Below are positions 1 to 37,034 of a DNA stretch of 39,616 nucleotides, piece by piece. Source of the DNA: a virus; IMG/VR virus record IMGVR_UViG_3300033553_000140, positions 1-39,616 of that record; one strand, given 5' to 3'. Positions within the stretch are counted from its first letter, which is position 1. Each line of letters begins with the position of its first letter. A program made the position numbers and the translations under genes. The notes under the pieces are model-generated. The model was not told where the DNA came from and made no database searches. It was given only the letters and a program-made list of their open reading frames with translations.

Positions 1-141
1 AGATTGTTTAGACGAAATCACTCATTGAAGTGTCTGACTTATTTTCATATCCTTTAACTTCTTTAAATCCTCTTAAGTAATTATCTACTAAATAAATAGG
101 CACAATTCTATCCTCTCTACCCACTCTATAAACCTCTACTA
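1..141. repeat. Terminal direct repeat, left copy (assembly overlap)
   Basis: Bases 1-141 are identical to 39476-39616. The exact length of 141 equals the largest default k-mer of the MEGAHIT assembler, so this is best read as the overlap of a circular contig and not a biological terminal repeat. It holds the 3' ends of two tail-to-tail genes: the helicase on the minus strand and a small zinc-finger gene on the plus strand. Confidence 0.95.
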
Positions 142-1537
142 ACTTCTCTCCAGAGTCAGGGTCAACATAGGTCCTAAGGAAATCTATTACTTTATTCTTC
201 TTGGGGTAGACTCCCGAGTCCTTATGTTTTATTTCATTGTAACTTCTTAAGTCAGCATAGGTTAAAAAGTTATTTCCTTTAAGTCGAGAATCTACAGACT
301 TCTCATCTAAGATGAAATTAACCGTGTTATCTTGCCACATCCTCAGTGAACTCAGAACTATTTGATTAAATTTCTCACCTTTGTAAGGCTCTTGTTTACC
401 TATCTTGTCACTCTTACCATATTCTAAAATCCACTTACCAAACTCGGCTACTAAAGGAGACTCATCGGCTAAGTCGTCCGTGTGTTGATTGAACTCATCA
501 AACCAGTTAGCATCGAATACTTTAGTTAAGTTAATATCTGTAAGTTCTAAAGGTGAGAAACGTCTATCATCTAGTTCAATGTAATTGTCAGCTAATTCAT
601 TATTTGAAAGGACTATAGAGCAATGGATATGAGTACTCTTAGTAGCGTCTATTCCCTTTTTCTCTATCGAGACAATGTCGTTTAACATCCTCTTCATATT
701 GTTTACGTCGGGTTTATCGTAATGGATTTCGTCAAACCAAACTACTCTGGAGTCTTGTAACTGAGAGTTAAATTGACCTCCAATGGTCCCACGCTTACCC
801 TCTACGAAGTTATTAGCTCCGTGTAATGCCCTAATTAACTTCTGTAATTGACCTTTACCAATACCTTTTTGTCCGCATAGCACCAGAAAGGTGTAAGCCC
901 TGTCTGTAAGGCTTTTATAAAGCCAGTCATAGAAATAGACCTTAGCCTCCTCAGTGACTATCAAATGGTCTATTAGACCCTTAAAAAGGGTAGGTATTTG
1001 GGGTTTAGCCTCAGTATTAAACCAATAAGGCGTTAAATATGAGTTTATAGCCATACAGGCTCTACCGTCTACTTCGGTAGGGTAGTGAGAGTCTGCCATT
1101 CTAGGGTTATAAACTGGGTCAATGTAAATAGCCTCATCGAATATATCTTTAGACTTCTTTCCTGTAGCAATGGCATAAAACTCTATATCAATCCTAGACC
1201 GCTCATAGGTTTCCGCGTTAACTAGAAATCTATGGTTTACATCTGTTACAGATATGGCGGGTCTTAACCCAGCTACTAGGTCGGATACTGGGTTAGATTG
1301 GTCCGAGCTAGTGGTCTCTCTAAACCCACTTTCAAATTTATAGATAACCTCCATACACTCTTCATCTGAATACCTAAACCTAACCTTTAAGAATTTAACT
1401 ATCAACTTCCTAGTTGCAGATATTCTAGGTCTCTCACCAGACTCAAATTTGTACCTATCACTCTGAATGGTTACTAACTTAGAAAAATATGTTTCTTGTA
1501 GATAGGACGAAATCTCTGATACGACTTGGCTAGTCAT
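8..1537 (-). CDS. Superfamily-3 (D5/DUF5906-like) replicative helicase
   Basis: This 509-residue protein probably unwinds DNA during phage replication. Residues about 222-229 are a Walker A loop (GQKGIGKG). Residues about 265-270 are a Walker B (VVWFDE). A polar sensor segment follows (SNNEL, near residue 315), then an arginine pair in DDRRF. This order is that of phage and plasmid SF3 AAA+ helicases of the D5/DUF5906 type. The N-terminal 200 residues show no primase motif that I can recognise. On the minus strand the start is preceded by a strong AAGGGAGTG Shine-Dalgarno. It is the only minus-strand gene left of the terminase operon. In circular coordinates its last bases overlap, tail to tail, the plus-strand zinc-finger gene at 39378-39503. 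The helicase call is firm at family level; helicase versus helicase-primase is open. Confidence 0.85.
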   Translation of the reverse strand: MTSQVVSEISSYLQETYFSKLVTIQSDRYKFESGERPRISATRKLIVKFLKVRFRYSDEECMEVIYKFESGFRETTSSDQSNPVSDLVAGLRPAISVTDVNHRFLVNAETYERSRIDIEFYAIATGKKSKDIFDEAIYIDPVYNPRMADSHYPTEVDGRACMAINSYLTPYWFNTEAKPQIPTLFKGLIDHLIVTEEAKVYFYDWLYKSLTDRAYTFLVLCGQKGIGKGQLQKLIRALHGANNFVEGKRGTIGGQFNSQLQDSRVVWFDEIHYDKPDVNNMKRMLNDIVSIEKKGIDATKSTHIHCSIVLSNNELADNYIELDDRRFSPLELTDINLTKVFDANWFDEFNQHTDDLADESPLVAEFGKWILEYGKSDKIGKQEPYKGEKFNQIVLSSLRMWQDNTVNFILDEKSVDSRLKGNNFLTYADLRSYNEIKHKDSGVYPKKNKVIDFLRTYVDPDSGEKLVEVYRVGREDRIVPIYLVDNYLRGFKEVKGYENKSDTSMSDFV

Positions 1538-1700
1538 TTTTACTCACTCCCTTAATATGTAAACTTCCCTTCAGGGACAGTAAAAAAAATGGAGTGAATT
1601 GTAAACGTATTTTGAGATATTTTTGTCGGGGATTTTAGTGGGAATTTATTAAACTTCGTAGATTATTACTATGTAACACTTTTTCAAAGTAGTAATTCTT

Positions 1701-1728
1701 ACCTCCCCACTCTTGGGTTTGGGGAGGT
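1701..1728. other. Hairpin with 9-bp stem, 10-base loop
   Basis: ACCTCCCCA (1701-1709) pairs perfectly with TGGGGAGGT (1720-1728). No T-run follows on either strand, so it does not look like an intrinsic terminator. It lies just before the GGGTACGAA repeats, so it could be part of an origin or a protein-binding site. Confidence 0.6.
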
Positions 1729-1730
1729 GT

Positions 1731-1793
1731 GGGTACGAAACTGAAATTGAAGTTGTTGATTTTATAGTAATTGGGTACGAACTTTTTGGGTAC
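1731..1793. repeat. Short direct repeats GGGTACGAA (iteron-like)
   Basis: GGGTACGAA occurs at 1731-1739 and 1773-1781, and GGGTAC again at 1788-1793. Three copies within about 60 bases of non-coding DNA beside the helicase gene suggest iteron-like protein sites. The copies are too few and too short to be sure. Confidence 0.35.
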
Positions 1794-1815
1794 ATGATAA
1801 TTTTGTCTCACAAGT

Positions 1816-1909
1816 TTAAAAAGACTCAGTGGGTAAACTGGGAAGTTTAAACATTTTGGAATAAGTCTTTTTAAGGATTAAATTCTTTAATGTTCTCCCA
1901 CTTGAGTCT
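1816..1909 (+). promoter_or_regulatory. Two mutually exclusive inverted repeats sharing one arm
   Basis: TTAAAAAGACT (1816-1826) is perfectly complementary to AGTCTTTTTAA (1864-1874). The overlapping AGACTCAGTGGG (1822-1833) can instead pair with CCCACTTGAGTCT (1897-1909) with one bulged T. Both pairings use 1822-1826, so only one can form at a time. This is the geometry of an attenuator or switch, but no ligand domain or T-run is recognised, and the likely promoter at 1931 lies downstream. Confidence 0.4.
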
Positions 1910-1930
1910 ATAAAATTTAATTCATTGCCA

Positions 1931-1960
1931 TTGGTTAGTCAATATTTTACTCTTTATATA
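1931..1960 (+). promoter_or_regulatory. Candidate sigma70-like promoter for the late operon
   Basis: TTGGTT (1931-1936) and TATATA (1955-1960) are separated by 18 bases. An alternative -10, TTTATA, lies at 1953. It sits 55-60 bases before the first terminase gene and is the best-placed promoter for the long plus-strand operon. The match to consensus is only moderate. Confidence 0.35.
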
Positions 1961-2020
1961 GTAAGTGAATACTACAAAACTCTTAGTTGAATAACTGAGT
2001 GTTAAAATCAAGGAATGAAT

Positions 2021-2473
2021 ATGTCTAAAGGTGTTAAGTCTAATGCTAAACCTATCCACTATATTAAAGAAGAAATGATTGTGTCCGAGCAAATCGGTAC
2101 CGTAGTACTTATGGGTCGTCCCACTAAATACAAACTAGAATACTGCCAGATGTTAATTGACCACATGACTAGCGGTTATTCCTTTGAGTCATTTGCTGGT
2201 GTTATAAGTGTTAATCGTGATACATTGTATCATTGGGAAAAACTATTCAAAGATTTTTCCGATAGTAAAGGTATTGCTAGACAAAAACAATTACTTCATG
2301 ATGAGAAATTACTTAAAGAATTAACTCTCGGAGTACACGGTAGATCGGCTAACGCTATCTCTCATATCTACAAAATGAAATGCTCACATCAAGGCTGGAT
2401 TGAAAAACAGGTAGTCGAACAAACTAATAAAAATATTCAAATTAACATTGATAGCGACGACTCTAAACTGTGA
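2021..2473 (+). CDS. terS: Terminase small subunit (putative)
   Basis: This protein of about 150 residues is the likely DNA-recognition subunit of the packaging terminase. A helix-turn-helix-like segment lies around 'SFAG...SVNRDTLYHWEK', followed by a helical region rich in Lys and Leu. This matches the size and plan of phage small terminases. It lies two genes upstream of the large subunit. The start is set by AAGGA at 2010-2014: it is adjacent to the ATG at 2015 but correctly spaced (6 bases) from the ATG at 2021, so 2021 is preferred. Its stop overlaps the next start (GTGA). The family call rests on context plus the HTH pattern. Confidence 0.7.
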   Translation: MSKGVKSNAKPIHYIKEEMIVSEQIGTVVLMGRPTKYKLEYCQMLIDHMTSGYSFESFAGVISVNRDTLYHWEKLFKDFSDSKGIARQKQLLHDEKLLKELTLGVHGRSANAISHIYKMKCSHQGWIEKQVVEQTNKNIQINIDSDDSKL

Positions 2474-2682
2474 TTAAAATATCGGTCGATATGTTAACGC
2501 TAAAACGTAACCAATTATCTGGAGACGTATTGTTACATGAGCCTCCGATAGTTATCTGGGACAATGATAAAGAAATTAAAAGATTATTCAGGTACGACAT
2601 TAGTGAAGAGTCTGAGATTGTTTACCGTCCAGAGAGCCCATTACCAAGTGGGTCTACTACTTACATTGTGATTTATGAATGA
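2470..2682 (+). CDS. Hypothetical protein between terminase subunits
   Basis: This 70-residue acidic protein is not recognised. It begins with GTG overlapping the terS stop (GTGA) and ends overlapping the large-terminase start (ATGA), so it is translationally coupled on both sides. The sequence is mixed beta-like with a Pro-rich turn (EPPIVIW) and ends in a beta-like YIVIYE. It has no membrane segment and no Cys cluster. Its place inside the terminase pair suggests a packaging accessory, but this is inference from position only. Confidence 0.7.
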   Translation: MIKISVDMLTLKRNQLSGDVLLHEPPIVIWDNDKEIKRLFRYDISEESEIVYRPESPLPSGSTTYIVIYE

Positions 2683-3944
2683 GTGTCGACGTATTTAAAA
2701 AGACACCTATTCAATGTAGAGCTATTAAAGACGTACTCTCCTCTAAATCTACTCACTGTATGCTTTACGGGGGTAGTCGAAGTGGAAAAACTTTTATCGC
2801 TATTTACTCTCTTATTGTTAGAGCCTGTAAATTTAAGTCGAGGCACGTTGTACTCAGGTTAAACTTTAACCATTGTAAAACATCTATCTGGCTTGACACT
2901 CTCCCCAAAGTTTTAAAGATTGCCTTTCCTGATTTAGAAGTTAAGTGGAATAAGACTGACTATTATGTTGAGTTTCCCAATGGCTCAGAGATATGGATAG
3001 GCGGTCTTGATGATGAGGCACGAGTAGAAAAGATTCTGGGTAAAGAATATTCTACTATGTACTTTAACGAGTGTTCACAGATACCCTATACTTCAATTCA
3101 AATAGCTCTTACCCGTTTAGCTGAGAAGTCTGGACTAAAGAATAAAGCCTATTACGATGAAAACCCCCCGACTAAAAGACATTGGTCCTATTGGATATTT
3201 ATTAAAAAGGTAGAGCCGTTAGAGTCTAAAGCTATTAAAGCTGAAAACTATAGCTCCCTGTTAATGAATCCTAAAGATAATATGGAGAATATTAATGATG
3301 AGTACCTTGAGCTACTGGACTCATTAGACGATAGACAAAAAGCTAGATTTCTACTCGGAGAGTTCATAGATGGTGACGAGGGTAATGTTTACTACGCATT
3401 TGATAGGGATAAAAACGTAAAAGAAATCGATAAGGGTTATCACATAGGTCAAATAAGAATCGGAATGGACTTTAACGTTAACCCAATGACTTCTATTGTA
3501 GGTTATTTCGTTAACGGAGTGTTCTATGTTACCGATGAGGTTTACTTGAATAACTCCGACACCTACAAGATGAGTCACGAATTAATTAAACGCGGGTATA
3601 AAGGGACAATTTACCCTGATAGTACTGGCGCTAATCGTAAAACATCTGGACGCTCGGACCATGAAATACTAAGAGAGGACGGATTTTATATCGAGTCCAC
3701 TCGTAACCCATTTGTTACCGACCGAGTGAATAACATTAATCGTCTGCTAAAAGACGGTAAAATAGTTATATCTCCCAAGTGTAAAATGCTCATTAACGAT
3801 TTAGAGAAAGTAGTCTGGAAAGGTAAAGACCTTGACGAGGGGAAAGATAAGTCTTTAACCCATATATCAGACGCTTTAGGTTATGTACTATGGGGTCTAA
3901 ATCCTATTGGGTTAAAATCTCCTAGTAAAATGCAAATGTTTTAA
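2679..3944 (+). CDS. terL: Terminase large subunit
   Basis: This 421-residue motor and nuclease cuts concatemeric DNA and pumps it into the prohead. Walker A is at residues 31-38 (GGSRSGKT). Walker B is near residues 125-132 (MYFNE, with the catalytic Glu). The C-terminal RNase H-like nuclease begins around IGMDFNVNP, with further acidic residues in YPDSTG and HISDALG, giving the three-metal-ligand pattern. The length is normal for the family. The start overlaps the preceding stop (ATGA). It is followed 30 bases later by the portal gene, which is the usual head-module order. Confidence 0.95.
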   Translation: MSVDVFKKTPIQCRAIKDVLSSKSTHCMLYGGSRSGKTFIAIYSLIVRACKFKSRHVVLRLNFNHCKTSIWLDTLPKVLKIAFPDLEVKWNKTDYYVEFPNGSEIWIGGLDDEARVEKILGKEYSTMYFNECSQIPYTSIQIALTRLAEKSGLKNKAYYDENPPTKRHWSYWIFIKKVEPLESKAIKAENYSSLLMNPKDNMENINDEYLELLDSLDDRQKARFLLGEFIDGDEGNVYYAFDRDKNVKEIDKGYHIGQIRIGMDFNVNPMTSIVGYFVNGVFYVTDEVYLNNSDTYKMSHELIKRGYKGTIYPDSTGANRKTSGRSDHEILREDGFYIESTRNPFVTDRVNNINRLLKDGKIVISPKCKMLINDLEKVVWKGKDLDEGKDKSLTHISDALGYVLWGLNPIGLKSPSKMQMF

Positions 3945-3974
3945 TTACTATTTTATATAAACGGAGAATTAAAT

Positions 3975-5459
3975 ATGGATATGAATACTCAACTAACTGT
4001 GGACTACGTTAAAGGTATTGTACTAGAGATTGAAGGGGTACAGAATCAGACTAGAAAAAGAGACTGCTATAAATCTTACGAGATTAGTGGTGGGCTATTA
4101 AGTAAATATGTTAAAGAAAGAATTATGGAAATGTTTCCCCTTACAGGGAGTTTCTACTCTATAGCCGACTATTCCCTTACTAAAAAGATCACTGAGAAAA
4201 AAGCTAAATCTTATAAAGACTCTCCAATCAGAAAGTTAAGCGGACCCGATGCTGATACTACTGAATATCAAGCTATGGTTAAAGATAGTGGACTCAATAC
4301 TCAATTAAAAGAAATTGATAAACTATTTAACGAGCATAAATACTGTGCATTGGCAGTATTCCCATACCTAGAGATGAGTGAAGTAAGAGCTAAACGTAAA
4401 GTATCTTACCGATTTATTCCATTGGCACCTTACGAATATGATTTAGTAAAAAATCAACATGGTGACACTGAGGTGGTAGTACTGTCTTATCCTTCACTCA
4501 ATATCACTAAAGGTATTGGAGAGAATGAACAAATAGCCGAGTCAGGCAGTGCAGACGAGGGAGAAATTAGGGCTTATGTATTCTGGACAAACTCAGAACA
4601 CAGGCTTTTTAAAGTTAGAGGTAGTGGTGAGAAGTTAACAGTCTGGGAGGAAATCATCGAAGGAAATCCAAACGGTGTAAACCCCTACGGTGTTATTCCT
4701 GTTATTGATATGCCTTGGTCTTACGACCCTAATTATCCACTACCAAGTCCGCTACCGAGACAGACCGTAGAGATTAACGCTCTATTATCTATTTACCTTC
4801 AATCTGCATCAATGCAGGTAGGTCAATTAGTTTTAAAATATCCACAGGGTCAAGAATTAGAGACTGTCACTCAGGGAGTTTTCACGGGGATTAAATTGCC
4901 TCAGAGTAAAAACCCAGATGATAGCGAAACAAGTGCAGACTACATTAACCCCAGTCCAGATTTAGCAGGGCATAAAGAGTCTATCCTTACTTATATGAGT
5001 ATGGTTTTAGATGAGCAGGGGATTAACTCTAATCAGGTAGTCAACCCAAGCGAGAAGTTCACATCTGGATTAGACAGACTTCTTTCAAGTGCAGACGTAC
5101 AAAATATTATTGAGGACAATCAAGAAAAATTCTTAGTCTTAGAGGACGAGATATTTAAGATTGTAAAACAATGTAACGATGTACTTGGTGGGCACAAATA
5201 TAACTCCGAGGAAATGTCGGTTATATACCTAAAACCAAAAATGATGATTTCGGACAGTGAAGAATTAGACAATCTTAAAAAGAAAAAAGACTTAGGTATA
5301 TTCGAGGACTGGGAGTTACTACAAGACTATAACCCCAACTTGTCAGAAGAGGACGCTAAGAAAAAGATTAAAGATTTAAAAGCTACAAGAATGGATACAA
5401 TGGTAACTAATGTTACTCCTAAAGTACCAGTACAAGGCGCTCCTATTGGCAATAAATAA
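3975..5459 (+). CDS. Portal protein
   Basis: This 494-residue protein is the probable dodecameric portal through which DNA enters the head and to which the tail attaches. Size, position directly after the large terminase, and the helical C-terminal part with a Pro-rich loop (YPLPSPLPRQTVEINALL) fit SPP1/HK97-type portals. The tail of the protein is highly charged (Lys/Glu/Asp), as in many portals. GGAGAA at 3963-3968 is well spaced from the ATG. The end overlaps the next gene. Confidence 0.8.
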   Translation: MDMNTQLTVDYVKGIVLEIEGVQNQTRKRDCYKSYEISGGLLSKYVKERIMEMFPLTGSFYSIADYSLTKKITEKKAKSYKDSPIRKLSGPDADTTEYQAMVKDSGLNTQLKEIDKLFNEHKYCALAVFPYLEMSEVRAKRKVSYRFIPLAPYEYDLVKNQHGDTEVVVLSYPSLNITKGIGENEQIAESGSADEGEIRAYVFWTNSEHRLFKVRGSGEKLTVWEEIIEGNPNGVNPYGVIPVIDMPWSYDPNYPLPSPLPRQTVEINALLSIYLQSASMQVGQLVLKYPQGQELETVTQGVFTGIKLPQSKNPDDSETSADYINPSPDLAGHKESILTYMSMVLDEQGINSNQVVNPSEKFTSGLDRLLSSADVQNIIEDNQEKFLVLEDEIFKIVKQCNDVLGGHKYNSEEMSVIYLKPKMMISDSEELDNLKKKKDLGIFEDWELLQDYNPNLSEEDAKKKIKDLKATRMDTMVTNVTPKVPVQGAPIGNK

Positions 5460-5937
5460 AAAAGAAACCAGCTTTACACTCTCTTTAGATATACCTAAAG
5501 AGATTAAAGGTGAGTCCAGGACTGAATTATTAGACAACATAAGTGAGTTTTTACTTACCGAGGTACTGTCTGAGGTTTCAGTGGGTAAATCCCCAGTCTC
5601 AGGACAAAAAAACTTTAAGCCATTGAGTAAAGCCTACGCTAATTCTAAGAAAAATGGTGACAAGATTTCTAATCTTGAATTGCACGGGGATATGTTAAAC
5701 GATTTAACTGCGGACGCAGTTAGTAGAAATAAAATAAAGCTAAGTATTAAAGGCGCACAGGCTGTAAAGAGTTATGCTCATAATACTGGTTACAAAGGAC
5801 ACCCCAAACTAGCCAATAAAAACCTAAGACGACCTTTTATTCCAGATATGTCGAAAGACGAAGTTTTTAATAAGACAATTACTAAAGGTATTGACGAATT
5901 AATAGCGGAGAAACTATCGGAGGTTAAAGATGGCTAA
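5446..5937 (+). CDS. Virion morphogenesis / neck-type protein (Mu gpG-like, putative)
   Basis: This protein of about 163 residues has a conserved-looking core: LHGDMLNDL, then an Ala/His segment YAHNTGYKG, then RRPFIPDMS. It resembles the 'TGxLxxSL ... YAxxHxxG ... RPFL' pattern of phage virion-morphogenesis (gpG/HK97 gp10-like) proteins that help join head and tail. The reading frame is open from an ATG at 5410, but only the TTG at 5446 has a spaced Shine-Dalgarno (AAGG at 5434-5437), so TTG is preferred. It overlaps the portal stop and is followed by a gene of similar plan. Confidence 0.6.
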   Translation: MAINKKETSFTLSLDIPKEIKGESRTELLDNISEFLLTEVLSEVSVGKSPVSGQKNFKPLSKAYANSKKNGDKISNLELHGDMLNDLTADAVSRNKIKLSIKGAQAVKSYAHNTGYKGHPKLANKNLRRPFIPDMSKDEVFNKTITKGIDELIAEKLSEVKDG

Positions 5938-6544
5938 GAAACTTAGGTATTTCGACGGCAACGTAGTAGCAAAAATAGAAAAAGAATCATTCTTAGAGTT
6001 TTACTCCGTACTAGCTGGAGGCGACTACCTCATTTTAGCAGTTAAAGCGCTAATCCTAGCTGGGATTTCTCCAGTAGCTAAAGTAGGTCGTAGGTTTCAG
6101 AAATATAGTGCGTCTTATCTAGCTTTTTTAAAGGGAGAAGTTAGGTTTTATACCTCTAGAGGTAGAGTCCGAGCCTATTCAATAACCAGTAAAAATAAAA
6201 GCGGTAAAAGTAAAAAGGGTAAATTCCCTAAACCTTTCCCCAATAAAAAATTAACCCCAGTAAATCTCTATGCTACCGGTGAAATGATGGATTCATTACA
6301 AATGAGAGCCGTTAGAAACACCGCATATATTGGGTTTACAGATGAAAAAGCAAAGTATCACGATAAATTAGGGGCGGGTAAATCTAGGGTTATTCGTAGG
6401 CTATTACCAACTAGACAAGGTGAGAAGTTTGTCTCTAACATAGACAGAGATGTTAAAGCCCTAGCTAAAGCGTCCATTACTAAAGTCCTACAGAATAATA
6501 GATTAGGACTAAAAATAAATTTTGTACTTAGTACTAAGCGATAA
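5930..6544 (+). CDS. Second morphogenesis-like head-tail protein (putative)
   Basis: This 204-residue, very basic protein shows a pattern like its upstream neighbour: YATGEMMDSLQ, then IGFTDEKAKYHDKLGAGKS, then RRLLPTRQGE. This is again reminiscent of gp10/gpG-type head-tail joining proteins ('TGEMxDSL ... YHxxG ... R.LP'). A Lys-rich loop (KNKSGKSKKGKFPKPFPNKK) precedes the motif. GGAGG at about 5920 lies inside the preceding gene, and the two genes overlap by 8 bases. The function is inferred from motif spacing and location in the head module. Confidence 0.55.
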   Translation: MAKKLRYFDGNVVAKIEKESFLEFYSVLAGGDYLILAVKALILAGISPVAKVGRRFQKYSASYLAFLKGEVRFYTSRGRVRAYSITSKNKSGKSKKGKFPKPFPNKKLTPVNLYATGEMMDSLQMRAVRNTAYIGFTDEKAKYHDKLGAGKSRVIRRLLPTRQGEKFVSNIDRDVKALAKASITKVLQNNRLGLKINFVLSTKR

Positions 6545-6548
6545 ATAC

Positions 6549-6579
6549 CTTGACACTATGTCAAGTGTAAAAATAAAAT
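6549..6579 (+). promoter_or_regulatory. Promoter with overlapping dyad before scaffold and capsid genes
   Basis: A perfect -35 (TTGACA, 6550-6555) is followed after 18 bases by TAAAAT (6574-6579). The -35 is one arm of the 7-bp inverted repeat CTTGACA-CTA-TGTCAAG (6549-6565), which could be an operator or a coincidental dyad. AGGAG (6580-6584) then serves the scaffold start at 6592. Together with the terminator after the capsid gene this defines a separate capsid transcription unit. Confidence 0.55.
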
Positions 6580-6591
6580 AGGAGTAGCAGA

Positions 6592-7209
6592 ATGTCTGAG
6601 AAATCTACCGTGAGTGAACACTCACAATCTGAGAGTGAACACTCTACAGAGTCTAATCAAGTAAATGTCAATGAAGTACTAGAGCGTCTTAAAGCATTAG
6701 AGTCTACTAATGCCAGATTGTTAGATGAGTCGAAAAAGACTAAGTCTAAATATCAAGAGGCACTATCTCAGTATGAGTCAGTGGATAAAGAACGATTAGA
6801 AAAAGAAGGTAACTTTCAAGCGTTATTAGAAAAAGAAATGGGTAGATCAAATAATTTAGTTAGTGAAATGAACGAAATGAAAAAGAAAGTGCTCTCGTCT
6901 AATATTAGATCAGTAGTACAGAAGTATGGATCAGACGTTTACGACATTGACGATTTACTTAATCAGCCTAGATTTTCACATATTCTAAAAGACGGGATTG
7001 ACGATACCACACTGTCAATAGATGAAGAGAAGGTTAAGGAATACATTAACGAGGTAATTAAAGCTAAGCCGTATATGAAACGGAATAACTCTATACCTAC
7101 TACTGTCGACACTAAACCCTCTTTCCAAAATATAGACGGTAAAGCTAAGTCACTAGACGAAATGTCTGCACAAGAATTAGAAAAGTTAATCGCATCAAGA
7201 TTTCAATAA
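6592..7209 (+). CDS. Capsid scaffolding protein
   Basis: This 205-residue protein is predicted to be almost wholly helical and highly charged. A coiled coil runs over residues about 25-110 (heptad-like Leu spacing, e.g. NEVLERLKALE), with a Ser/Glu-rich N-terminus. This is the usual composition of siphovirus scaffolds (DUF4355-like) that guide capsid assembly and then leave. It lies immediately before the major capsid gene, behind its own promoter. No protease motif is seen here, and no separate head protease gene is visible in the window. Confidence 0.75.
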   Translation: MSEKSTVSEHSQSESEHSTESNQVNVNEVLERLKALESTNARLLDESKKTKSKYQEALSQYESVDKERLEKEGNFQALLEKEMGRSNNLVSEMNEMKKKVLSSNIRSVVQKYGSDVYDIDDLLNQPRFSHILKDGIDDTTLSIDEEKVKEYINEVIKAKPYMKRNNSIPTTVDTKPSFQNIDGKAKSLDEMSAQELEKLIASRFQ

Positions 7210-7236
7210 TAGAAAATATCCAAGGGAGGATACACA

Positions 7237-8058
7237 ATGGCAGCAATTAATCCAAGTACAGCTACTAAAAACGACATGATTGTCGCTCTAGTACAAAAAG
7301 AACTACTATTCAACGCAATGTTAGCTCCACTAGTAACTAACGTTTCTCAATTTGCTGTAAAGGGGAATAAATCAGTAGAATTCCCTAAGTTAACTTCATT
7401 CACAGCTGGTTTACGTGCATTTGGTACGGCTGGTGTTGAGTCGGTTATTTCAGAAAGTACAGACGTTTTAAATTTAGACCAAAATTTATACATCGCTTAC
7501 ATTATCGATACAAGTTCAGCTATCCAGTCTTCAATTAATTGGGAAATGGAAACGGCTAAACGTGCGTCTAGTGCAATCGCTAGAGCAATCGACACTAAAC
7601 TAGTAGCTACTCTTGAGTCAGTAGGTACACCAGTAGGTGTAGTTGGAGACGTTACCAAAGCTATCGTTATCGAAATGAGACGTAAACTTATGGTAGCTAA
7701 CGCTGATATGAACGCAGTAGTTTTCCTAGCATCTCCAGACCAAGAGGCTAAACTTTTAAACATTGACGAATTTACAAGAAACGATGTTTATGGTCAACCA
7801 GTAAACATGACTGGTATGATCGGTCGTCTTTACGGTGTACCGGTTATCATTTCTAACTCTCTAGCGTCTGGCTCATTCTATATGTTTGATAAAGCCGGTA
7901 TCGCTATGGCTTTCCAACGCTCACCTGCATACGGTGAGGCTCCAGCTATTGAATACGGTGTTTCATCGGTTAAGAGAGCTATCGACACTCTATGGGGTGT
8001 ATGTGGACTTCAATTAACTGCGGGTGTTTCACCTCTAGTAGTTAAGCACGGAGTTTAA
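7237..8058 (+). CDS. Major capsid protein
   Basis: This 273-residue protein is the likely HK97-fold capsid subunit. It has the expected traits: an N-terminal Ala-rich helix, a FPKLTSFTAGLRAFGT beta segment, a long helix (NWEMETAKRASSAIARAID), and the typical GMIGRLYGVPVIISNSLASG strand near residue 190, seen in many P22/HK97-type coat proteins. It is preceded by a very strong Shine-Dalgarno (AGGGAGG) and followed by a strong terminator, consistent with high expression. Codon choice (CGT, GGT, AAC, ATC) is noticeably more polished than in its neighbours. Confidence 0.85.
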   Translation: MAAINPSTATKNDMIVALVQKELLFNAMLAPLVTNVSQFAVKGNKSVEFPKLTSFTAGLRAFGTAGVESVISESTDVLNLDQNLYIAYIIDTSSAIQSSINWEMETAKRASSAIARAIDTKLVATLESVGTPVGVVGDVTKAIVIEMRRKLMVANADMNAVVFLASPDQEAKLLNIDEFTRNDVYGQPVNMTGMIGRLYGVPVIISNSLASGSFYMFDKAGIAMAFQRSPAYGEAPAIEYGVSSVKRAIDTLWGVCGLQLTAGVSPLVVKHGV

Positions 8059-8076
8059 TACTTAATTAGTTTTATC

Positions 8077-8104
8077 GCCCACACCTAATACGTGTGGGCT
8101 TTTT
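8077..8104 (+). terminator. Rho-independent terminator after major capsid gene
   Basis: GCCCACAC (8077-8084) and GTGTGGGC (8092-8099) form a perfect GC-rich 8-bp stem with a 7-base loop, followed by five T's. It is placed 18 bases after the capsid stop. Genes downstream are probably reached by read-through. Confidence 0.9.
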
Positions 8105-8120
8105 AATAATTGGGGATTAA

Positions 8121-8767: not shown

Positions 8768-8780
8768 ACGGAGTTAAATT

Positions 8781-28403: not shown

Positions 28404-28404
28404 A

Positions 28405-28960: not shown

Positions 28961-29041
28961 TCAAACTTAAATAACTATTCACTCGGCAAAATTTACCCCA
29001 AACTATTAGTATAAGAATTAACCTTTTTTCACGGAAGAAAA

Positions 29042-29743: not shown

Positions 29744-30039
29744 TGTTAAAGCTACCTAAGTTTTTTAATATTTTTGGGATAAGAGTTAAATTAAAGTACG
29801 ACTCTAAAATGCCTACCAATGTAGCAGGGTATTACTACCCCGATAAAGAGTTAATAACCTTAAACCCATTACAAGATGATAAAGAGGCACTTCATAGCTT
29901 AATACATGAGGCGGGACATAGTTTGTTTTATAGGATTAGTATTAATCAGTCTATTAGCTACGAGGTACATGAATACATAGTTAATAATATGGCTACTATG
30001 CTTTTAGAAAATTTCGATATAAAATTTAAAAAGCCATAG
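29743..30039 (+). CDS. Small zinc metalloprotease-like protein (HEAGH)
   Basis: This 98-residue protein starts with GTG overlapping the phosphoesterase stop. It carries HEAGH at residues 55-59 inside a long helix (EALHSLIHEAGHSLFY) and acidic residues 15-20 positions later (YEVHEYIVNNM), the gluzincin or IrrE/ImmA-like arrangement of zinc ligands. It lacks an N-terminal DNA-binding domain. Possible roles are cleavage of a host repressor or a phage protein. The zinc-binding call is firmer than the protease call. Confidence 0.65.
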   Translation: MLKLPKFFNIFGIRVKLKYDSKMPTNVAGYYYPDKELITLNPLQDDKEALHSLIHEAGHSLFYRISINQSISYEVHEYIVNNMATMLLENFDIKFKKP

Positions 30040-30057
30040 GTCTAATCTGATTAGACC
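30039..30057 (+). other. Hairpin after the plus-strand operon
   Basis: GGTCTAAT (30039-30046) pairs with ATTAGACC (30050-30057) over a three-base loop, at the end of the last plus-strand gene. No T-run follows directly; it may stabilise the 3' end or add to the next terminator. Confidence 0.55.
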
Positions 30058-30058
30058 C

Positions 30059-30120
30059 GACTCACCCGTACCATTGGCTAGGTGCTTAAATAATAAATAA
30101 ATAAATGGGGGAGTCTTTTT
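30059..30120 (+). terminator. Terminator of the plus-strand operon
   Basis: GACTCACCC (30059-30067) pairs with GGGGGAGTC (30107-30115) with one mismatch across a long AT-rich loop, followed by five T's. It lies at the meeting point of the two convergent operons. Confidence 0.55.
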
Positions 30121-30174
30121 AAAAAACGTAGTGTGTGAATTGAGCACGAATTAAAACATAAATTAAGAATACAA

Positions 30175-30202
30175 CTACTAGGACAAATGATCGTCCTAGT
30201 AG
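30175..30202 (-). terminator. Terminator of the minus-strand replication operon
   Basis: CTACTAGGAC (30175-30184) and GTCCTAGTAG (30193-30202) form a perfect 10-bp stem with an 8-base loop. Read on the minus strand, it is followed by TTGTATTCTT. It sits 14 bases after the last minus-strand gene. Confidence 0.7.
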
Positions 30203-30215
30203 CCTATCAGAGAAA

Positions 30216-30344
30216 TTATTTCTTAGCTGGTTTCTTGACTGGCTTAGACTTAACTGGAGCCTTTTTAGCTGGAGCCTTTTTAGCCAGCTTTTTCGCTGGG
30301 GCTTTAGTGATAACTTTTTTAACTGTTTTTGATTCTGTAACCAT
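30216..30344 (-). CDS. Lys/Ala/Pro-rich basic peptide (histone H1-like)
   Basis: This 42-residue protein of extremely basic composition consists of imperfect KKAPA-type repeats (KAPAKKLAKKAPAKKAPVKS), like the tails of histone H1-like and other nucleic-acid-binding proteins. The start is chosen at 30344, where AGGAG is well spaced; the frame stays open upstream to 30524 but that part looks unrelated. It probably binds DNA or RNA non-specifically, possibly to compact phage or host DNA. It is the last gene of the minus operon, just before a strong terminator. Pentapeptide repeats are visible in the DNA as repeated tttttagctggagcc. Confidence 0.65.
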   Translation of the reverse strand: MVTESKTVKKVITKAPAKKLAKKAPAKKAPVKSKPVKKPAKK

Positions 30345-30492
30345 TCTTTTTCTCCTAGTCCTAACGACGTAAATGCCATTGGGTATAAATTTGTAAACTC
30401 TGATAAAATTAACGAGTCCGCTATTTTGAAATCTTTTTTTATTCTCATCTCTAAACCATATAATATTATTATTTAAAACGTAAAGTACATTA

Positions 30493-30876
30493 CTACATAG
30501 TGATAGCATTAAATTTTTCCTCAATGTTTTTTAGTCTAGCTATTTCCGTACTGCTATCTTTTAGTGCTTTCATAATTTGTAGGAAAGTACCACTATCTAA
30601 AATAGAAACCCATTCTTTTTTGCTTTTACGGTGAAAAATTACATACTGGGTACTTTTACAATCAGTTTTACATTGTTCGACGGCACTATAGAGACTAAAA
30701 GCCTCTACCCTTTTTACTTCGATGTGAAGGGGTAGGTCACTGACTACGTCTGGACTTTCATTTCCTCCAGAGAATTGTTGACCTCTACGAGCCTCGAATC
30801 CGTAAGACCGGATTAACTCCGCTACTTCTCTCTCTCCACATTTACCTTTAGAATTACTATTAATTTTTTTAGCCAT
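30493..30876 (-). CDS. PD-(D/E)XK nuclease (Holliday-junction-resolvase-like)
   Basis: This 127-residue nuclease candidate starts at the ATG at 30876 (MAKKINSNSKGKCGEREVAE). The motif set is E in CGEREVAELIRSYGF, then D in SPDVV, then E-x-K in HIEVKR, which is the PD-(D/E)XK catalytic core. It is common in small phage resolvases and VRR-like nucleases that cut branched DNA. The frame is open further upstream to 31020, but that would run into the helicase gene (ends at 30927) and lacks conserved character. It is likely to resolve recombination intermediates or trim concatemers before packaging. Confidence 0.8.
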   Translation of the reverse strand: MAKKINSNSKGKCGEREVAELIRSYGFEARRGQQFSGGNESPDVVSDLPLHIEVKRVEAFSLYSAVEQCKTDCKSTQYVIFHRKSKKEWVSILDSGTFLQIMKALKDSSTEIARLKNIEEKFNAITM

Positions 30877-30926
30877 TTTTACCCCGTGTAAGTTAAGGCT
30901 AACTGAAGTTGAGGCAAAATGTCTAG

Positions 30927-32132
30927 CTACAGTACAGCACTTAGGGTTTTTTCTTTCGACCGAACTACCTTTAAAATTCTCTCGTCCACGGCTCCAGCAA
31001 TTATGTAGTAGTAGAGACAATCCTTATCTTGACCGATTCTATTGATTCTCTTTTTAGCTTGTTCTATGTCCGACCCGACCCACGGGAAAGAGTTAAATAC
31101 CATTACATGAGTATTCACTAAATTTAACCCCGTCGAACTCGTGCCTATTGTGGTCACTAAATACTGGGACTTTTTATTAATAAAGTCTTGGACAATAATA
31201 TCTCTATTCTCTAAGGATACTTCTCCCGTAATGGGACTTACACCGAGTATTTTAGCCAATACTTTAGTGCTATCAATATGGTCGCAGAAAACTACTATCT
31301 GCTCACATTGACCCTCACCTATTAACTCCTCACAGAATTTGGCGGTGTGTGGAGCTTTTAGTAGTGCATTTTTGGCTTTTAAACTAGCTAGAGCTGTACT
31401 GGGTTTATTAGTTTTAACAAACGACTCAAATAATTCGTCACTCGGTACCTCTTTTTCAATGTCTAGAAAAACCTCGATGTCTCTCATAGAGGGTAAGTCT
31501 ATATCCATTTTTAGCCGTCTTAAGTAACAAGTACTCATTATAGTTTTTAGTTCGTCTGTATTTCTATGTCCCGAGTACTTGGTTATCTTTCTACCATAGA
31601 TTATTTTAGACTCTGGGATAGAGAACTTGTTACAAAAAGCCCAGTAGTTATTATAGGGAGCCATTGCAATACGGGTTTGAATATTTCCATAAGAGCATAT
31701 CATTAGTAAGGAATAAAACTCAGGTATGCGGTTTTTTATAGGGGTCCCCGACAATAAATAAACATTGGTAGGTTTATATTTTTGAATATAAAAATGAATT
31801 GCCTTAGTCCTATTGGAGTCTATATTTTTAATATAGTGGCACTCATCAATGATAATATGTGAGCAATTTTCTAAGTATATTTCAGCCTTACCAGAGGCTA
31901 CATACTCATAAGAGCAGATGTTAAATAATTTATTAAATCCCCATTTGGAAATCTCTCTAATCCAGTTAGCTTTTAAGTAAGCGGGACACACTACAAGTAG
32001 CTTAGTACAATTTCTTGATGCCTCTATACTGCTACGCGTCTTACCTAGTCCCATATTATCCGCCAATATTACATACTGGTTTATCTCTAGGAAACCTTTA
32101 GCTACAGTTTGATGGGGTAACATTGGTAACAT
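30927..32132 (-). CDS. SNF2-type DEAD/H ATPase (helicase-like)
   Basis: This protein of about 401 residues has the SF2/SNF2 motifs in order: Walker A in ILADNMGLGKTRS, DECH in IIIDECHYIKN, SGTPIKN (motif III), and QAKKRINRIGQ (motif VI). It should translocate on double-stranded DNA and may remodel replication forks or remove proteins. GTG at 32138 is open, but AAGGAA (32140-32145) lies too close to it and at correct spacing from ATG 32132, so 32132 is preferred. It is shorter than typical cellular SNF2 proteins, as usual in phages. It is followed by the small nuclease. Confidence 0.85.
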   Translation of the reverse strand: MLPMLPHQTVAKGFLEINQYVILADNMGLGKTRSSIEASRNCTKLLVVCPAYLKANWIREISKWGFNKLFNICSYEYVASGKAEIYLENCSHIIIDECHYIKNIDSNRTKAIHFYIQKYKPTNVYLLSGTPIKNRIPEFYSLLMICSYGNIQTRIAMAPYNNYWAFCNKFSIPESKIIYGRKITKYSGHRNTDELKTIMSTCYLRRLKMDIDLPSMRDIEVFLDIEKEVPSDELFESFVKTNKPSTALASLKAKNALLKAPHTAKFCEELIGEGQCEQIVVFCDHIDSTKVLAKILGVSPITGEVSLENRDIIVQDFINKKSQYLVTTIGTSSTGLNLVNTHVMVFNSFPWVGSDIEQAKKRINRIGQDKDCLYYYIIAGAVDERILKVVRSKEKTLSAVL

Positions 32133-32164
32133 TGGCACGTTCCTTGAATATTAAATCCCAAATA

Positions 32165-32178
32165 GTGAAATAATTCAC
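32165..32178. promoter_or_regulatory. Dyad in divergent helicase/HTH intergenic region (operator candidate)
   Basis: GTGAA-ATAA-TTCAC lies between the minus-strand helicase start and the plus-strand HTH gene start at 32194. Short arms and central position suggest a binding site for the adjacent HTH protein. Confidence 0.35.
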
Positions 32179-32193
32179 GCTGGGAGAAGTATT

Positions 32194-32472
32194 ATGAGAA
32201 AGCCTATTAAAATGTCCGAGACACAATTAAAAACAATAAAAGAACTAACACAGTCTGGGGTTAACTCTTATCAAATTGCTAAACGTCTAGCTATTCCGAA
32301 CGCAGTAGCACGTTATCACGCTAATAAAGTATTGGGACGTAAAAGTATTCCCGAGGTAAAAACTACAGGTGACGTTACCCCAAATATCCTAGACGCATAC
32401 AACGAATATAAAAAACAAATGGAAATATTAAAAGTTAAATTCTTATCCGAGGTAGCTAATCAATTACATTAG
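32194..32472 (+). CDS. Small helix-turn-helix DNA-binding protein
   Basis: This 92-residue protein has an HTH at about residues 10-45 (MSETQLKTIKELTQSGVNSY, then QIAKRLAIPNAVARYHANKV), as in resolvase-type or homeodomain-like regulators, and a charged helical C-terminus (AYNEYKKQMEILKVKFLSEV). It is transcribed against the surrounding minus-strand operon. The start is set by GGGAGAAG. A 10-bp-stem terminator follows. It is likely a regulator or a DNA-binding accessory of replication. Confidence 0.75.
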   Translation: MRKPIKMSETQLKTIKELTQSGVNSYQIAKRLAIPNAVARYHANKVLGRKSIPEVKTTGDVTPNILDAYNEYKKQMEILKVKFLSEVANQLH

Positions 32473-32477
32473 TAAAA

Positions 32478-32508
32478 TTGGGAGAGTAAATAGTTCATAC
32501 TCTCCCAA
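32478..32508. terminator. Bidirectional terminator between HTH and endolysin genes
   Basis: TTGGGAGAGT (32478-32487) pairs with ACTCTCCCAA (32499-32508) over an 11-base loop. On the minus strand it is followed by TTTTACTAA; on the plus strand by AATTATTAA. It separates the plus-strand HTH gene from the minus-strand endolysin gene. Confidence 0.7.
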
Positions 32509-32512
32509 ATTA

Positions 32513-33142
32513 TTAACTTAAACTAATTACAATACAAGCTACCCCTAAGCGTTTGTCTACTTTAGTCGAGCTAAATTTACCATCTGAGGTATACAATCCC
32601 GAATGATACTTACTAGTAGACGCATAGACGTAGGGGCTGACTAGACCTTTGTGTCTATATCCAAGCCCGTTAAATTTTTCTGCGAAGTCCATTTGTCCCG
32701 CGAAGTCCCACTTAGCTGGAAACTTATTTTTCTCTAGAATAATAGCGTCGATAGCGGATTCGTGCCATGAGGTAAAGGGACCGCGACCCTTAGGTACATT
32801 TACCGTTTTTTTATTCCAAGGGTCCCCATTGTGTAAGCACCCTCGGAAATCTAGTGAACTTTCTCTATAGTGTATCCCAGCTACGAGTTTCCAAGGTACT
32901 CCAGTAGCGTCTTGTACTGCCATGTATCTTTCTTGGTTAGCTAAAATTATCTTAGTGACAGAGAGTATTTCTACCTTAGCCTCACCATTTACTACAATGT
33001 CTCCAAACTCATCGGGATAAATAACGGGGGTTTCTTTAGTTACTGGGGGCTTTACCTCTTCATACTTTTTATAGGTAATCTCTTTCTCTACATTCTTATT
33101 CAATAGATTTTTAAAAAATCTCTTAATCGCGTCCCATACCAT
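32513..33142 (-). CDS. Endolysin (lysozyme/transglycosylase-like)
   Basis: This 209-residue peptidoglycan hydrolase candidate has an N-terminal amphipathic region (residues 1-25) without a signal peptide. From residue 65 comes a lysozyme-like domain: GVPWKLVAGIHYRESS with Glu94 as likely catalytic acid, LHNGDPWNKKTVNVPKGRGP, SWHESAIDAI, NGLGYR and SPYVYASTSKYHSG. These motifs belong to a known phage lysozyme family. It lies in the minus-strand replication operon, far from the holin-like genes on the other strand. It is preceded by a zinc-ribbon gene that overlaps its start by 20 bases. Confidence 0.85.
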   Translation of the reverse strand: MVWDAIKRFFKNLLNKNVEKEITYKKYEEVKPPVTKETPVIYPDEFGDIVVNGEAKVEILSVTKIILANQERYMAVQDATGVPWKLVAGIHYRESSLDFRGCLHNGDPWNKKTVNVPKGRGPFTSWHESAIDAIILEKNKFPAKWDFAGQMDFAEKFNGLGYRHKGLVSPYVYASTSKYHSGLYTSDGKFSSTKVDKRLGVACIVISLS

Positions 33143-33350
33143 ATAATACTATCCCCTCTATTTTAGGCGTACACGCAGGACACACCCGTTTAAATTTATT
33201 TATCGCTTTAAATTCTAAATCGCACTTTAAACATTCTCTTTCTATAGTGGGTAATGGGTCTTTACAGGATTTACATATCCTTACCCCATTACCTAAAGTT
33301 AGAATTAAGTTATAATTATCGCAGTTAGGACATTGCTCTCTATTCTGCAC
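33123..33350 (-). CDS. Small double zinc-ribbon protein
   Basis: About 75 residues (from GTG at 33350). Two CxxC pairs occur twice: CPNC with CKSC, then CLKC with CPAC, giving two zinc ribbons. The frame is open up to 33434 with an ATG at 33392, but those residues lie inside the nuclease gene; the GTG at 33350 has GGAG about 10 bases upstream and is the more economical start. It overlaps the upstream nuclease stop and the downstream endolysin start. It could bind nucleic acid or a replication protein; no family name is assigned. Confidence 0.65.
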   Translation of the reverse strand: MQNREQCPNCDNYNLILTLGNGVRICKSCKDPLPTIERECLKCDLEFKAINKFKRVCPACTPKIEGIVLYGMGRD

Positions 33351-34272
33351 TAGACCATATCTCCATAGTAGCTTGTGAGTAGTTATGCCCATGACACTTA
33401 CTAAAATAAGGACATGGAGTAAAATAGTTCTCACATTGAGAGTAGTTTCTAACTGGCACTAGACCCTTTCTTAAATCATTAGTTCGGGCATGAAACGTAT
33501 TGAAGTCGTCTTTAACCCACTTAGTTTTTTCAGCGTCCATTGGTACGACATAAATTCTAGTCTCAATAACTTTCTCCAATCTATTAACGTAGGCAGATAG
33601 AGCCTCTTCTGATTTTCTCTTGGTCGTTGTTTTATTTGTTGCTATGTAAAGGGCACCCGAGAAGTCTTTTAAGTCTAAACCTAATTTCTCCGCGACTTGA
33701 TTAGCATACGAACTATACAAGTGTAGTTGAGCGTCCATACCCAATTTAGCTTTTAGAGTTTCAGACTGTCTAGCAGTAGTCTTTAAGTCTCCCAAGTACC
33801 ATTTTGGAGAGTCTAAATCTTTAAATACCACGTCGATAAACCCAATAAAGTTATCATCGGTTAACTGTAACTCGATAGCGATTGGAGTAAGACGGCTAAA
33901 TACTTTATGCGTCTCTTTAAAGTTCAAGTAAACCTTAACCATTGCCACGACTAGAGCCATTCTATCGCCTTCAATGTTAGCACCTGATTGAACATCTTTA
34001 ATTACCTGAGCTAAACCATTTGACGTGTGTTGAGTTAGTTCTAAAATTGTGTGAAAGGCTTTACCGAGTACTAATGAGTCTTTATTATCGTCGAAATCTA
34101 TATCCTGAGGGGTGTTATTAACCTTGTAATGCCAATATTTTTGTTCACAAGATTTAACCGTAGTGTACGAAGAGTAACTTAATCTAGTGTCTGACAATTC
34201 TCTTTTTTCATTCGGTGGAAATGGTAACTCTAACTGTATCTCTACCTTTGTTTTAGCTTTTTTCTTAGCCAT
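33340..34272 (-). CDS. Cas4/RecB-like PD-(D/E)XK exonuclease
   Basis: This 310-residue nuclease is likely involved in DNA end processing or recombination. The N-terminal RLSYSSYTTVKSCEQKYWHY (Cys in the first iron-sulfur position) resembles the start of Cas4/AddB-type enzymes. The catalytic core is GFIDVVFKDL, with D, and LGDLKTT, with D-x-K. Further on is QLHLYSSYA, and a C-terminal Cys cluster CENYFTPCPYFSKC, giving the four Cys expected for a 4Fe-4S cluster. It follows the SSB-like gene and precedes the zinc ribbon. Confidence 0.85.
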   Translation of the reverse strand: MAKKKAKTKVEIQLELPFPPNEKRELSDTRLSYSSYTTVKSCEQKYWHYKVNNTPQDIDFDDNKDSLVLGKAFHTILELTQHTSNGLAQVIKDVQSGANIEGDRMALVVAMVKVYLNFKETHKVFSRLTPIAIELQLTDDNFIGFIDVVFKDLDSPKWYLGDLKTTARQSETLKAKLGMDAQLHLYSSYANQVAEKLGLDLKDFSGALYIATNKTTTKRKSEEALSAYVNRLEKVIETRIYVVPMDAEKTKWVKDDFNTFHARTNDLRKGLVPVRNYSQCENYFTPCPYFSKCHGHNYSQATMEIWSSAE

Positions 34273-34291
34273 AAAATTCTCCAGTGTAAGA

Positions 34292-34309
34292 GGGGAGTAT
34301 TAACTCCCC
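34292..34309. other. Small hairpin between SSB-like and nuclease genes
   Basis: GGGGAGT (34292-34298) pairs with ACTCCCC (34303-34309) over ATTA. T-rich sequence follows only on the plus strand; on the minus strand, in the direction of the operon, it is followed by CTCTTAC. It may slow or process the message between the SSB-like gene and the nuclease. Confidence 0.5.
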
Positions 34310-34316
34310 CTTTAAA

Positions 34317-34709
34317 TTATGCTAAAAAGCTATCGTCTTCTGTAGCTGGGCTAGACTCTAATACTTCTTTCATAGCGACTTGAGTAGACGCTACTAAGAG
34401 TTTACAGTCGTGAAAGTCCTTACCTGCCATTTTACCCTTAGTAAGTTTTTGCTTACCATTGTAAACGACTCTACAAGTAGTTTTTGGCTCAATATCTTGT
34501 AACTTGTAATTGATTGACCCGAAACCGTTTAGGACTTTCTTCTCATTGCCCACCATAAACTCATGTTGTAAGCCGAATTTACCTTGGAAAGTTCTCATAA
34601 AAGTACCCTCTACGATAACATCTCCAGCCTTAAAAGCAGGTTTCCCGTTAGGTGCTACGTTAATGTAACTAACCGACCCGCCCACTTCGTTAAATTGCAT
34701 CTCTGACAT
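34317..34709 (-). CDS. ssb: Single-stranded DNA-binding-like protein
   Basis: This 130-residue protein has an OB-fold-like pattern of strands (VIVEGTFMRTFQGKFGLQHE, then TCRVVYNGKQKLTKGKMAGK, then FHDCKLLV) and an acidic C-terminal tail (ATEDDSFLA), as SSBs use to contact polymerases and helicases. The start is set by GGAG on the minus strand. Located between the DNA polymerase and the nuclease genes, it most likely coats single-stranded DNA at the phage fork. Confidence 0.7.
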   Translation of the reverse strand: MSEMQFNEVGGSVSYINVAPNGKPAFKAGDVIVEGTFMRTFQGKFGLQHEFMVGNEKKVLNGFGSINYKLQDIEPKTTCRVVYNGKQKLTKGKMAGKDFHDCKLLVASTQVAMKEVLESSPATEDDSFLA

Positions 34710-34762
34710 AAAAAAATCTCCAAATGATAGCCGAAATATTAATATTGAAAGGGTAGGCTACC

Positions 34763-36781
34763 TTACTCTTTCGTTAAGTATTTCTTAAATTGTTCAAACT
34801 CCGACTTAGCCCTACCGTCTACATAAATGGTCTGACTGTCTAACTTCATTCCTTTAGGTGTTACCATTACTCCGTTAGGATAGTCTGGACTCCAAGTCTT
34901 ACCGTCCAGTCTAATCATGTTAGCTGGAGTCTCCATAGTAGTACCCTTAAAGTAATGAATGAAAGCGTCTCTCATACATTGTTCTAAAGTGTCTACAGCG
35001 TTTAAATCTCCGCTATCGTATTCGATATAAAGTGCATCGTGAAGAGTAAATATTATTTTTAATCCTGCATCTTGAGCCAGTGCTACAGCCTTTCTCATTA
35101 TCGAACTACCAAACCCTTGGATAGGGAAATTTCCTACCGATCTAAAATTATTATTGTCTCCAAACATCGTCCAGCCACATGGTAGCTTTAACTTACCCTC
35201 TAACTGATATTTTAAAACTAATTCGTCACGACCCGAGACCATATCTGGAAAGGCATCATTGAACTTATTAATAAACTCTTGAGCATCGTCCTCAGTAACT
35301 ACCTTACCTGTATCTTGTGTTAACTTTCTGGCTAGTCCTACTTTACTCATCTGGTAACTTAATCCAAGTACAGTAGCTTTAAATAAGTCCCTTATTGCCT
35401 CGTTATCCGATCTTTTAGCGTCCATTGGTACCGCACCAGCTAATTTAGCAAAGAAAAAATAAACATCTCCAGAGGCATAAGCATCTAACATATTTTTATC
35501 TTTAAAAATAAGAGCACCTAATAAAAACTCTTGAGACGAGTAGTCTAGTCCAGCTATCGCTTTACCCGATTTAGGTTGTATTAAAGCCCGAAACCAAGCC
35601 GACTTTAACGGGATAAAGGAAACACTGCGGGGCTGTGAGCGTCCGCTCTGACTGCCATATATACCCATAAAAGCACGGGACCTTTCGTCTACTCCGACAC
35701 TATCAAAAAATGTATTCTGGTTTTTAGCGTGTGGACTAGGGGGTATAAACCCATTCATAGACTGCCTAGTTTTAAGTAGTCTAACCATTTGTTCACCGAA
35801 AGAAGTCTTAGAGTAGCTATGTCTCGTAGGGAAATAGTGAGAGAAAACGTCTACAGTTAAAGAGTATTTACCTGTAGCGGTCCTAGCCCAGTCGTACCCT
35901 AGACTATCTATCCAATTAAATATTTTCTTCTCTCTACGAGAGTATTTCTCTTGTACTTTATTCCATTCAAACGGGGCTATCTCTGGGAATAGATCGTTAA
36001 TCTCTCTCATAATATCGTCTAAAATATTCTGAGAATTATTAAAGAAGTTTTTACACCATTCTAAATTAATGGGATAGCCGACCCTTTCAACTACAGCACT
36101 ACGACTAGCATACTCTCCTCTAAGAATTATCTCTGACTGTAATAATGGTAGCTCAGACTTAGGTATTAGTATTTTCCAAGCCTTTCTAAAAGCGTCTAGT
36201 AACTCGGGTAATAACTCAATGTCCGACTCGTTATATTCTAATATTTCCTTTAACTCTGAATTAGTAAATGTTTCGGGAGAAGAAATTATCAAGTCTCTTA
36301 TTTTATCCTTTCTATCTGTATCAATTATTTTACCTAACATCTTGTAGCACCCTGAGGCTAGGTTATGCTGGGGTTTTTGATGGGACTCTAAATCGTCCTC
36401 AGTGTTAAAGTAGCCTCTGGGTGCCGAGGTATGTTTAACTTTACCGCCTATTAACTGTCTACCATACATAAACTCGTGACAGTGATTAGTTAACATTCTG
36501 TACTCTAAGTATAGGTCATACCATTTGAGAGGTATTGGATTAATACCTAGAGAATAAAAAGCACTAGCCTCAGCTAGGACATTCCAAGCTACGAATATAT
36601 AGTCCTCAGAAATTAATTTTTCTAAATCAGTTTTTAACCCTTCTTTAGACTCAAGGTTTTTGTGTAACCAATAGGTATATTTCTTAGTCCCAGTAGTAGA
36701 TAAAGAGACGCTACAGCTAACTAGGTTAAGTTTTTCTTGGTTAGTAGAGTTATACTCGAAGTCGATATATACATATTTCAT
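34763..36781 (-). CDS. Family A DNA polymerase with 3'-5' exonuclease
   Basis: This 672-residue protein is the phage replicative polymerase. Exonuclease motifs are intact: D7 and E9 in IDFEYN, and YNESDIELL (Exo III) near residue 190. Polymerase motif A is LDYSSQE near residue 412. Motif B is RDLFKATVLGLSYQ near residue 465. Motif C is LHDALYIEY near residue 580. Motif C reads HDA where Pol I has HDE, as in some phage polymerases. No 5' nuclease domain is present. It is the first gene of the minus operon, facing the divergent region at 36782-36878. Confidence 0.95.
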   Translation of the reverse strand: MKYVYIDFEYNSTNQEKLNLVSCSVSLSTTGTKKYTYWLHKNLESKEGLKTDLEKLISEDYIFVAWNVLAEASAFYSLGINPIPLKWYDLYLEYRMLTNHCHEFMYGRQLIGGKVKHTSAPRGYFNTEDDLESHQKPQHNLASGCYKMLGKIIDTDRKDKIRDLIISSPETFTNSELKEILEYNESDIELLPELLDAFRKAWKILIPKSELPLLQSEIILRGEYASRSAVVERVGYPINLEWCKNFFNNSQNILDDIMREINDLFPEIAPFEWNKVQEKYSRREKKIFNWIDSLGYDWARTATGKYSLTVDVFSHYFPTRHSYSKTSFGEQMVRLLKTRQSMNGFIPPSPHAKNQNTFFDSVGVDERSRAFMGIYGSQSGRSQPRSVSFIPLKSAWFRALIQPKSGKAIAGLDYSSQEFLLGALIFKDKNMLDAYASGDVYFFFAKLAGAVPMDAKRSDNEAIRDLFKATVLGLSYQMSKVGLARKLTQDTGKVVTEDDAQEFINKFNDAFPDMVSGRDELVLKYQLEGKLKLPCGWTMFGDNNNFRSVGNFPIQGFGSSIMRKAVALAQDAGLKIIFTLHDALYIEYDSGDLNAVDTLEQCMRDAFIHYFKGTTMETPANMIRLDGKTWSPDYPNGVMVTPKGMKLDSQTIYVDGRAKSEFEQFKKYLTKE

Positions 36782-36821
36782 ACCCAGAAACTTAAATCGG
36801 TTTAATTAAGAAGTAAACACT

Positions 36822-36850
36822 ATACTTATTTATTTATGTGGTATAAGTAT
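36822..36850. promoter_or_regulatory. Inverted repeat in divergent polymerase/RHH intergenic region
   Basis: ATACTTAT (36822-36829) and ATAAGTAT (36843-36850) are 8-bp arms separated by 13 bases, between the starts of the polymerase (minus) and the RHH gene (plus). Each arm also resembles a -10 element (TATACT, TATAAG). This is a natural operator for the ribbon-helix-helix protein encoded next door. Confidence 0.5.
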
Positions 36851-36878
36851 GCTACCTAATTAACATGGAGTTTGTTCA

Positions 36879-37034
36879 ATGGGACGTAAAAAACTAAAAG
36901 GAAAAGATAAGAAGGTTAAAATAAGTATAACCGTAGAAGAGTACCAGCTAGAGTTTCTATATGAAATGGGTCCTACGGTATCCGAGGCTATTAGAAAGAT
37001 GATAGACTATAAACTCAGAGGAGGTAAGAGATGA
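36879..37034 (+). CDS. Ribbon-helix-helix transcription regulator
   Basis: This 51-residue protein has a basic N-terminus (GRKKLKGKDKK), a beta strand (VKISITV), helix 1 (EEYQLEFLYEMG) and helix 2 (TVSEAIRKMIDYKL). This is the Arc/MetJ/CopG-type ribbon-helix-helix order; the strand inserts into the DNA major groove as a dimer. GGAG upstream of the ATG is well spaced. Its stop overlaps the next ATG (ATGA). It lies directly downstream of an inverted repeat in a divergent promoter region, so auto-repression and repression of the replication operon are plausible. Confidence 0.75.
   Translation: MGRKKLKGKDKKVKISITVEEYQLEFLYEMGPTVSEAIRKMIDYKLRGGKR

Follow-up and report, generated by a model that had tools for sequence, protein, structure and literature searches.

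Depletion of GATC and of several other Type II-like motifs points to restriction-site avoidance in the core of an uncultured phage genome

The window analyzed here, a DNA stretch of 39,616 bases, is the whole of record IMGVR_UViG_3300033553_000140, a stand-alone virus contig. The same 141-base direct repeat is found at each end of the record (1-141 and 39476-39616). Because of these identical ends, the sequence probably represents a complete phage genome of ~39.5 kb. GC content is low (0.37), and codon preferences are strong. Besides the tail-fibre, helicase, nuclease and polymerase genes listed in Table 1, genes for terminase subunits and a tail tape-measure-like protein were recognized. No DNA methyltransferase family was found among 20 phage proteins scanned with Pfam. 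A megablast search against phages gave no match to the window, and the searches with terminase, polymerase and portal returned distant matches only, or none, and do not identify the host. The nearest terminase matches in bacterial genomes are at 57% or less and cover part of the protein.

Table 1. Organization of the window and motif content of its parts.
Feature	Coordinates	Strand	Remarks
Core part 1: primase/helicase-like gene, packaging, head and tail genes	1..19765		GATC, GGCC, CCNGG and RAGCTY depleted
Tail-fibre gene, 1322 aa	19766..23734	+	PHROG 24210 tail fibre; motif content differs from that of the core
Core part 2: tail, lysis-like and replication genes (SNF2-type helicase, PD-(D/E)XK nuclease, family A DNA polymerase)	23743..37030		
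Small-gene island without GATC depletion	37031..39616	+	29 GATC
Hexanucleotide tandem array, ~46.7 copies of a GGATNT-type unit	37942..38221	+	Within ORF 37916-38230; 22 GATC

For counting, the core was taken as positions 1-20230 plus 23743-37030. These parts hold 12 and 8 GATC sites, respectively, exactly the numbers counted by hand in the initial annotation. The total of 20 compares with ~113 sites expected from base composition and 69-70 expected from an order-2 Markov model, an observed/expected ratio of 0.29 for the latter. The strong depletion claimed earlier for the core is therefore real, and codon-based null models agree with it. GATC has not disappeared altogether; of the 20 residual sites, 10 share the context AGATCG/CGATCT. 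Karlin tau*, a more conservative measure, is 0.58 for GATC in a near-identical core and 0.95 over the whole window, the latter because the GATC-rich array is included.

In an AT-rich genome with strong codon preferences, such a deficit might follow from base composition or from bias in codon usage or codon pairs. Synonymous codons were shuffled over 41 core ORFs, preserving the protein sequence and codon usage, which gave 19 GATC observed against 68.7 expected (z -7.2). A stricter shuffle, in which the base following each codon is also kept, halves the apparent effect, with 34.7 sites expected instead of 68.7, but the depletion is still significant (z -3.6). As this strict null is unable to change the GAT|C class, it absorbs part of the signal and understates the effect. 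The deficit is of similar size in the three reading frames (6, 7 and 6 observed against 29, 19 and 20 expected), is seen in both gene orientations and both halves of the core, and is absent from the island of the same genome. All 12 sites of the first half lie before position 18200, for a codon-null expectation of 41 in the coding sequence 1-19750, and the coding sequence of core part 2 has 7 sites instead of 28. Depletion in all frames and orientations is not explained by composition and codon usage, and the two codon-preserving nulls together with the frame analysis reject either as the full explanation. We regard an origin of this kind as extremely unlikely.

The sites would have been lost mainly through synonymous changes, and codon choice in the core shows where. 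Ahead of C, Asp is encoded by GAC 37 times and by GAT 6 times, whereas ahead of A the ratio is 59:139; for comparison, Asn codons ahead of C are balanced (AAC 50, AAT 49). Ile is encoded by ATC in 6 of 97 cases after G and in 70 of 278 after T. GGC preceding C (0/81) and GCC following G (0/136) are never used.

This last pattern reflects other depleted motifs, which the initial annotation had missed. GGCC is absent from the core (42 expected from the Markov model, 25 from the codon null), and CCNGG (52 and 18 expected) and RAGCTY (44 and 33 expected) occur once each. All three are more strongly depleted than GATC; under-representation beyond composition and codon usage is found for GATC, GGCC and RAGCTY. 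GAWTC, RGATCY, GAYRTC, YACGTR and CCGG are under-used in the core as well. When 1,472 motif patterns were screened against the codon nulls, RAGCTY, GGCC, CCNGG, GAYRTC, YACGTR and GAWTC ranked at the top; because they were picked out of so many tests, the weaker among them call for caution. Since these motifs are depleted along with GATC, the footprint spans several specificities.

The avoided motifs look like Type II sites, and their sister motifs are spared. GAATC|GATTC is low (19 against 44 expected) and GACTC|GAGTC is not (70 against 57). GGNCC, in contrast to CCNGG, is found at the expected level (24 against 21). Within the AGCT contexts, AAGCTC|GAGCTT (1 against 15) and AAGCTT (0 against 9) are missing, while AAGCTA|TAGCTT is unaffected (40 against 40.5). 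The absence of AAGCTC|GAGCTT rules out that the RAGCTY deficit is a combination of HindIII and SacI sites. A tendency for palindromes to be under-represented is general and may have causes unrelated to restriction (PMC4687349), and palindromic hexamers as a class stand at 0.64 here, with comparable or weaker deficits in the relatives. A general palindrome shortage accounts for the data only partially, as individual 4-mers vary widely. CTAG, GTAC, AGCT, CGCG and TTAA have ratios near or above 1 in the core, so that the equal depletion of palindromes that would have spoken against a GATC-specific effect is absent.

Avoidance of RAGCTY is the most unusual part of this footprint. No match to this specificity was found in the literature searched, which comprised one library, and it may still be known. 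A tentative possibility, which we consider doubtful, is that its near-absence is the trace of a degenerate 6-bp Type II specificity not yet described, and that the fibre gene derives from a phage that had not encountered this specificity.

The initial annotation explained the GATC deficit by hosts with restriction specific for GATC, or by Dam-linked targeting. The core data support selection against GATC, but that reading is too narrow, given that GGCC, CCNGG and RAGCTY are more depleted. The same applies to an explanation by mismatch repair. GATC is the MutH/Dam site, and the host MutH would nick unmethylated GATC in fast-replicating phage DNA, which would counter-select the motif. Such counter-selection was proposed for enterobacterial phages, a proposal credited to Deschavanne and Radman (1991) in PMC5014478 and PMC4687349. 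In phiX174, GATC is completely absent (PMC5014478). The present core resembles phiX174 in that GATC is strongly reduced relative to expectation, but the motif is not absent here and unrelated palindromes are more strongly lost. Further in favor of MutH, Proteobacteria phage MWH-Nonnen-W8red 1 (CP017838; host Silvanigrella aquatica), which provided the best match to the family A DNA polymerase in the phage collection, has no GATC where 72 are expected. The likeness between the two phages is limited to the polymerase, and GGCC, CCGG and RAGCTY are not eliminated in CP017838. As GATC is not the only depleted motif of the window, and MutH leaves the stronger losses unexplained, this explanation is improbable; it is a real alternative for the GATC motif only.

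A methyl-dependent, DpnI-like Type IIM system, directed against GATC methylated by a Dam-type enzyme of the host, would act on the same motif. Among 46 phages from hosts with Type IIM enzymes for GATC, 45 under-represent the motif, at a ratio under 0.8 (PMC6286503). However, the authors of that study explain the avoidance of modification-dependent sites chiefly by orthodox Type II systems that recognize the same sequences, and the other depleted motifs would again be unexplained. We consider a Type IIM system very unlikely as the cause.

The tail-fibre gene and the island carry different motif records. The range given initially for the depletion, 1-37030, includes the fibre body (20231-23742), with 7 GATC against ~11 expected. 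For the fibre gene, the codon null expects 8.6 GATC, and 7 are present, together with 7 RAGCTY, 8 GCWGC and 9 GAWTC. GATC by itself separates fibre and core weakly (P 0.12, Markov); the contrast is clear for RAGCTY (7 in the fibre, 1 in the core; P about 1e-6) and for GCWGC (8 against 1, P 0.001). These two contrasts show a different history of the fibre gene and suggest, from motif content, that it may have been exchanged from another phage.

Outside the hexamer array, the island has 7 GATC for 7.8 expected (P 0.018 against the core). The other 22 lie within the 280 bases of the array. The current host is thus unlikely to restrict strongly at GATC, which argues against the earlier reading as far as the present host is concerned. 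Because both the fibre gene and the GATC-bearing array tolerate GATC, the pressure on this motif would now be weak or historical, and the core deficit may be mainly historical or host-dependent. The array ORF encodes a Gly-Asp/Gly-Ser/Gly-Tyr repeat, and its start overlaps the end of a DUF6948 gene (37560-37928).

The closest relative (L002, 11 kb, TerL 88%) shares most of the signature. Observed against expected, it has 9/33 GATC, 0/8 GGCC, 0/11 CCGG, no CCNGG and 2/10 RAGCTY; unlike in the core of the window, GAWTC is normal (21/21). Among relatives at ~65% TerL identity, the deficits are patchy. GATC is mostly at 0.7-1.0, with 0.57 in L011 (67%); GGCC, CCGG and CCWGG are still low in L003 and L005, and other distant relatives vary. 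Such patchiness, seen also among the replication-module relatives described below, is more easily reconciled with restriction pressure that changes than with a constant mutational bias.

Taken together, it is likely that the core shows restriction-site avoidance and bears the footprint of several Type II-like specificities. The phage lineage would have spent many generations in hosts with several such systems, in which phages with fewer targets survived more often. The selecting agents would be restriction enzymes, Type II in kind, with GATC, GGCC, CCNGG, a degenerate RAGCTY and GAWTC as putative targets. Restriction-site avoidance in phages is a well-established general phenomenon. In dsDNA phages, as here, short palindromic Type II sites fall short of expectation or are almost lost throughout the genome (Rusinov et al. 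2018, PMC6286503); avoidance concerns mainly the sites of orthodox Type II systems, and the under-representation is significant in roughly one in four viral genomes. Relative to the cut-offs of that study, the core ratio for GATC is below 0.8, and those for GGCC (0/42) and CCNGG (1/52) are below 0.1, the CCNGG ratio being obtained with a different estimator. A difference from that study is that several motifs are affected at once here. In an uncultured phage, motif deficits make it possible to read which restriction specificities the phage has met. The different records of the core, fibre gene and island hint at exchanged parts and could help in tracing the host.

Deficits of GATC also occur among relatives of the replication module. 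The polymerase relatives L173, L179 and L162 have 10/71, 2/64 and 0/72 of the expected GATC, respectively, and differ in their other motif deficits; in L173, GAWTC is low (6/40) and GGCC is not avoided. Motif signatures were likewise varied among the polymerase relatives found in viral contigs.
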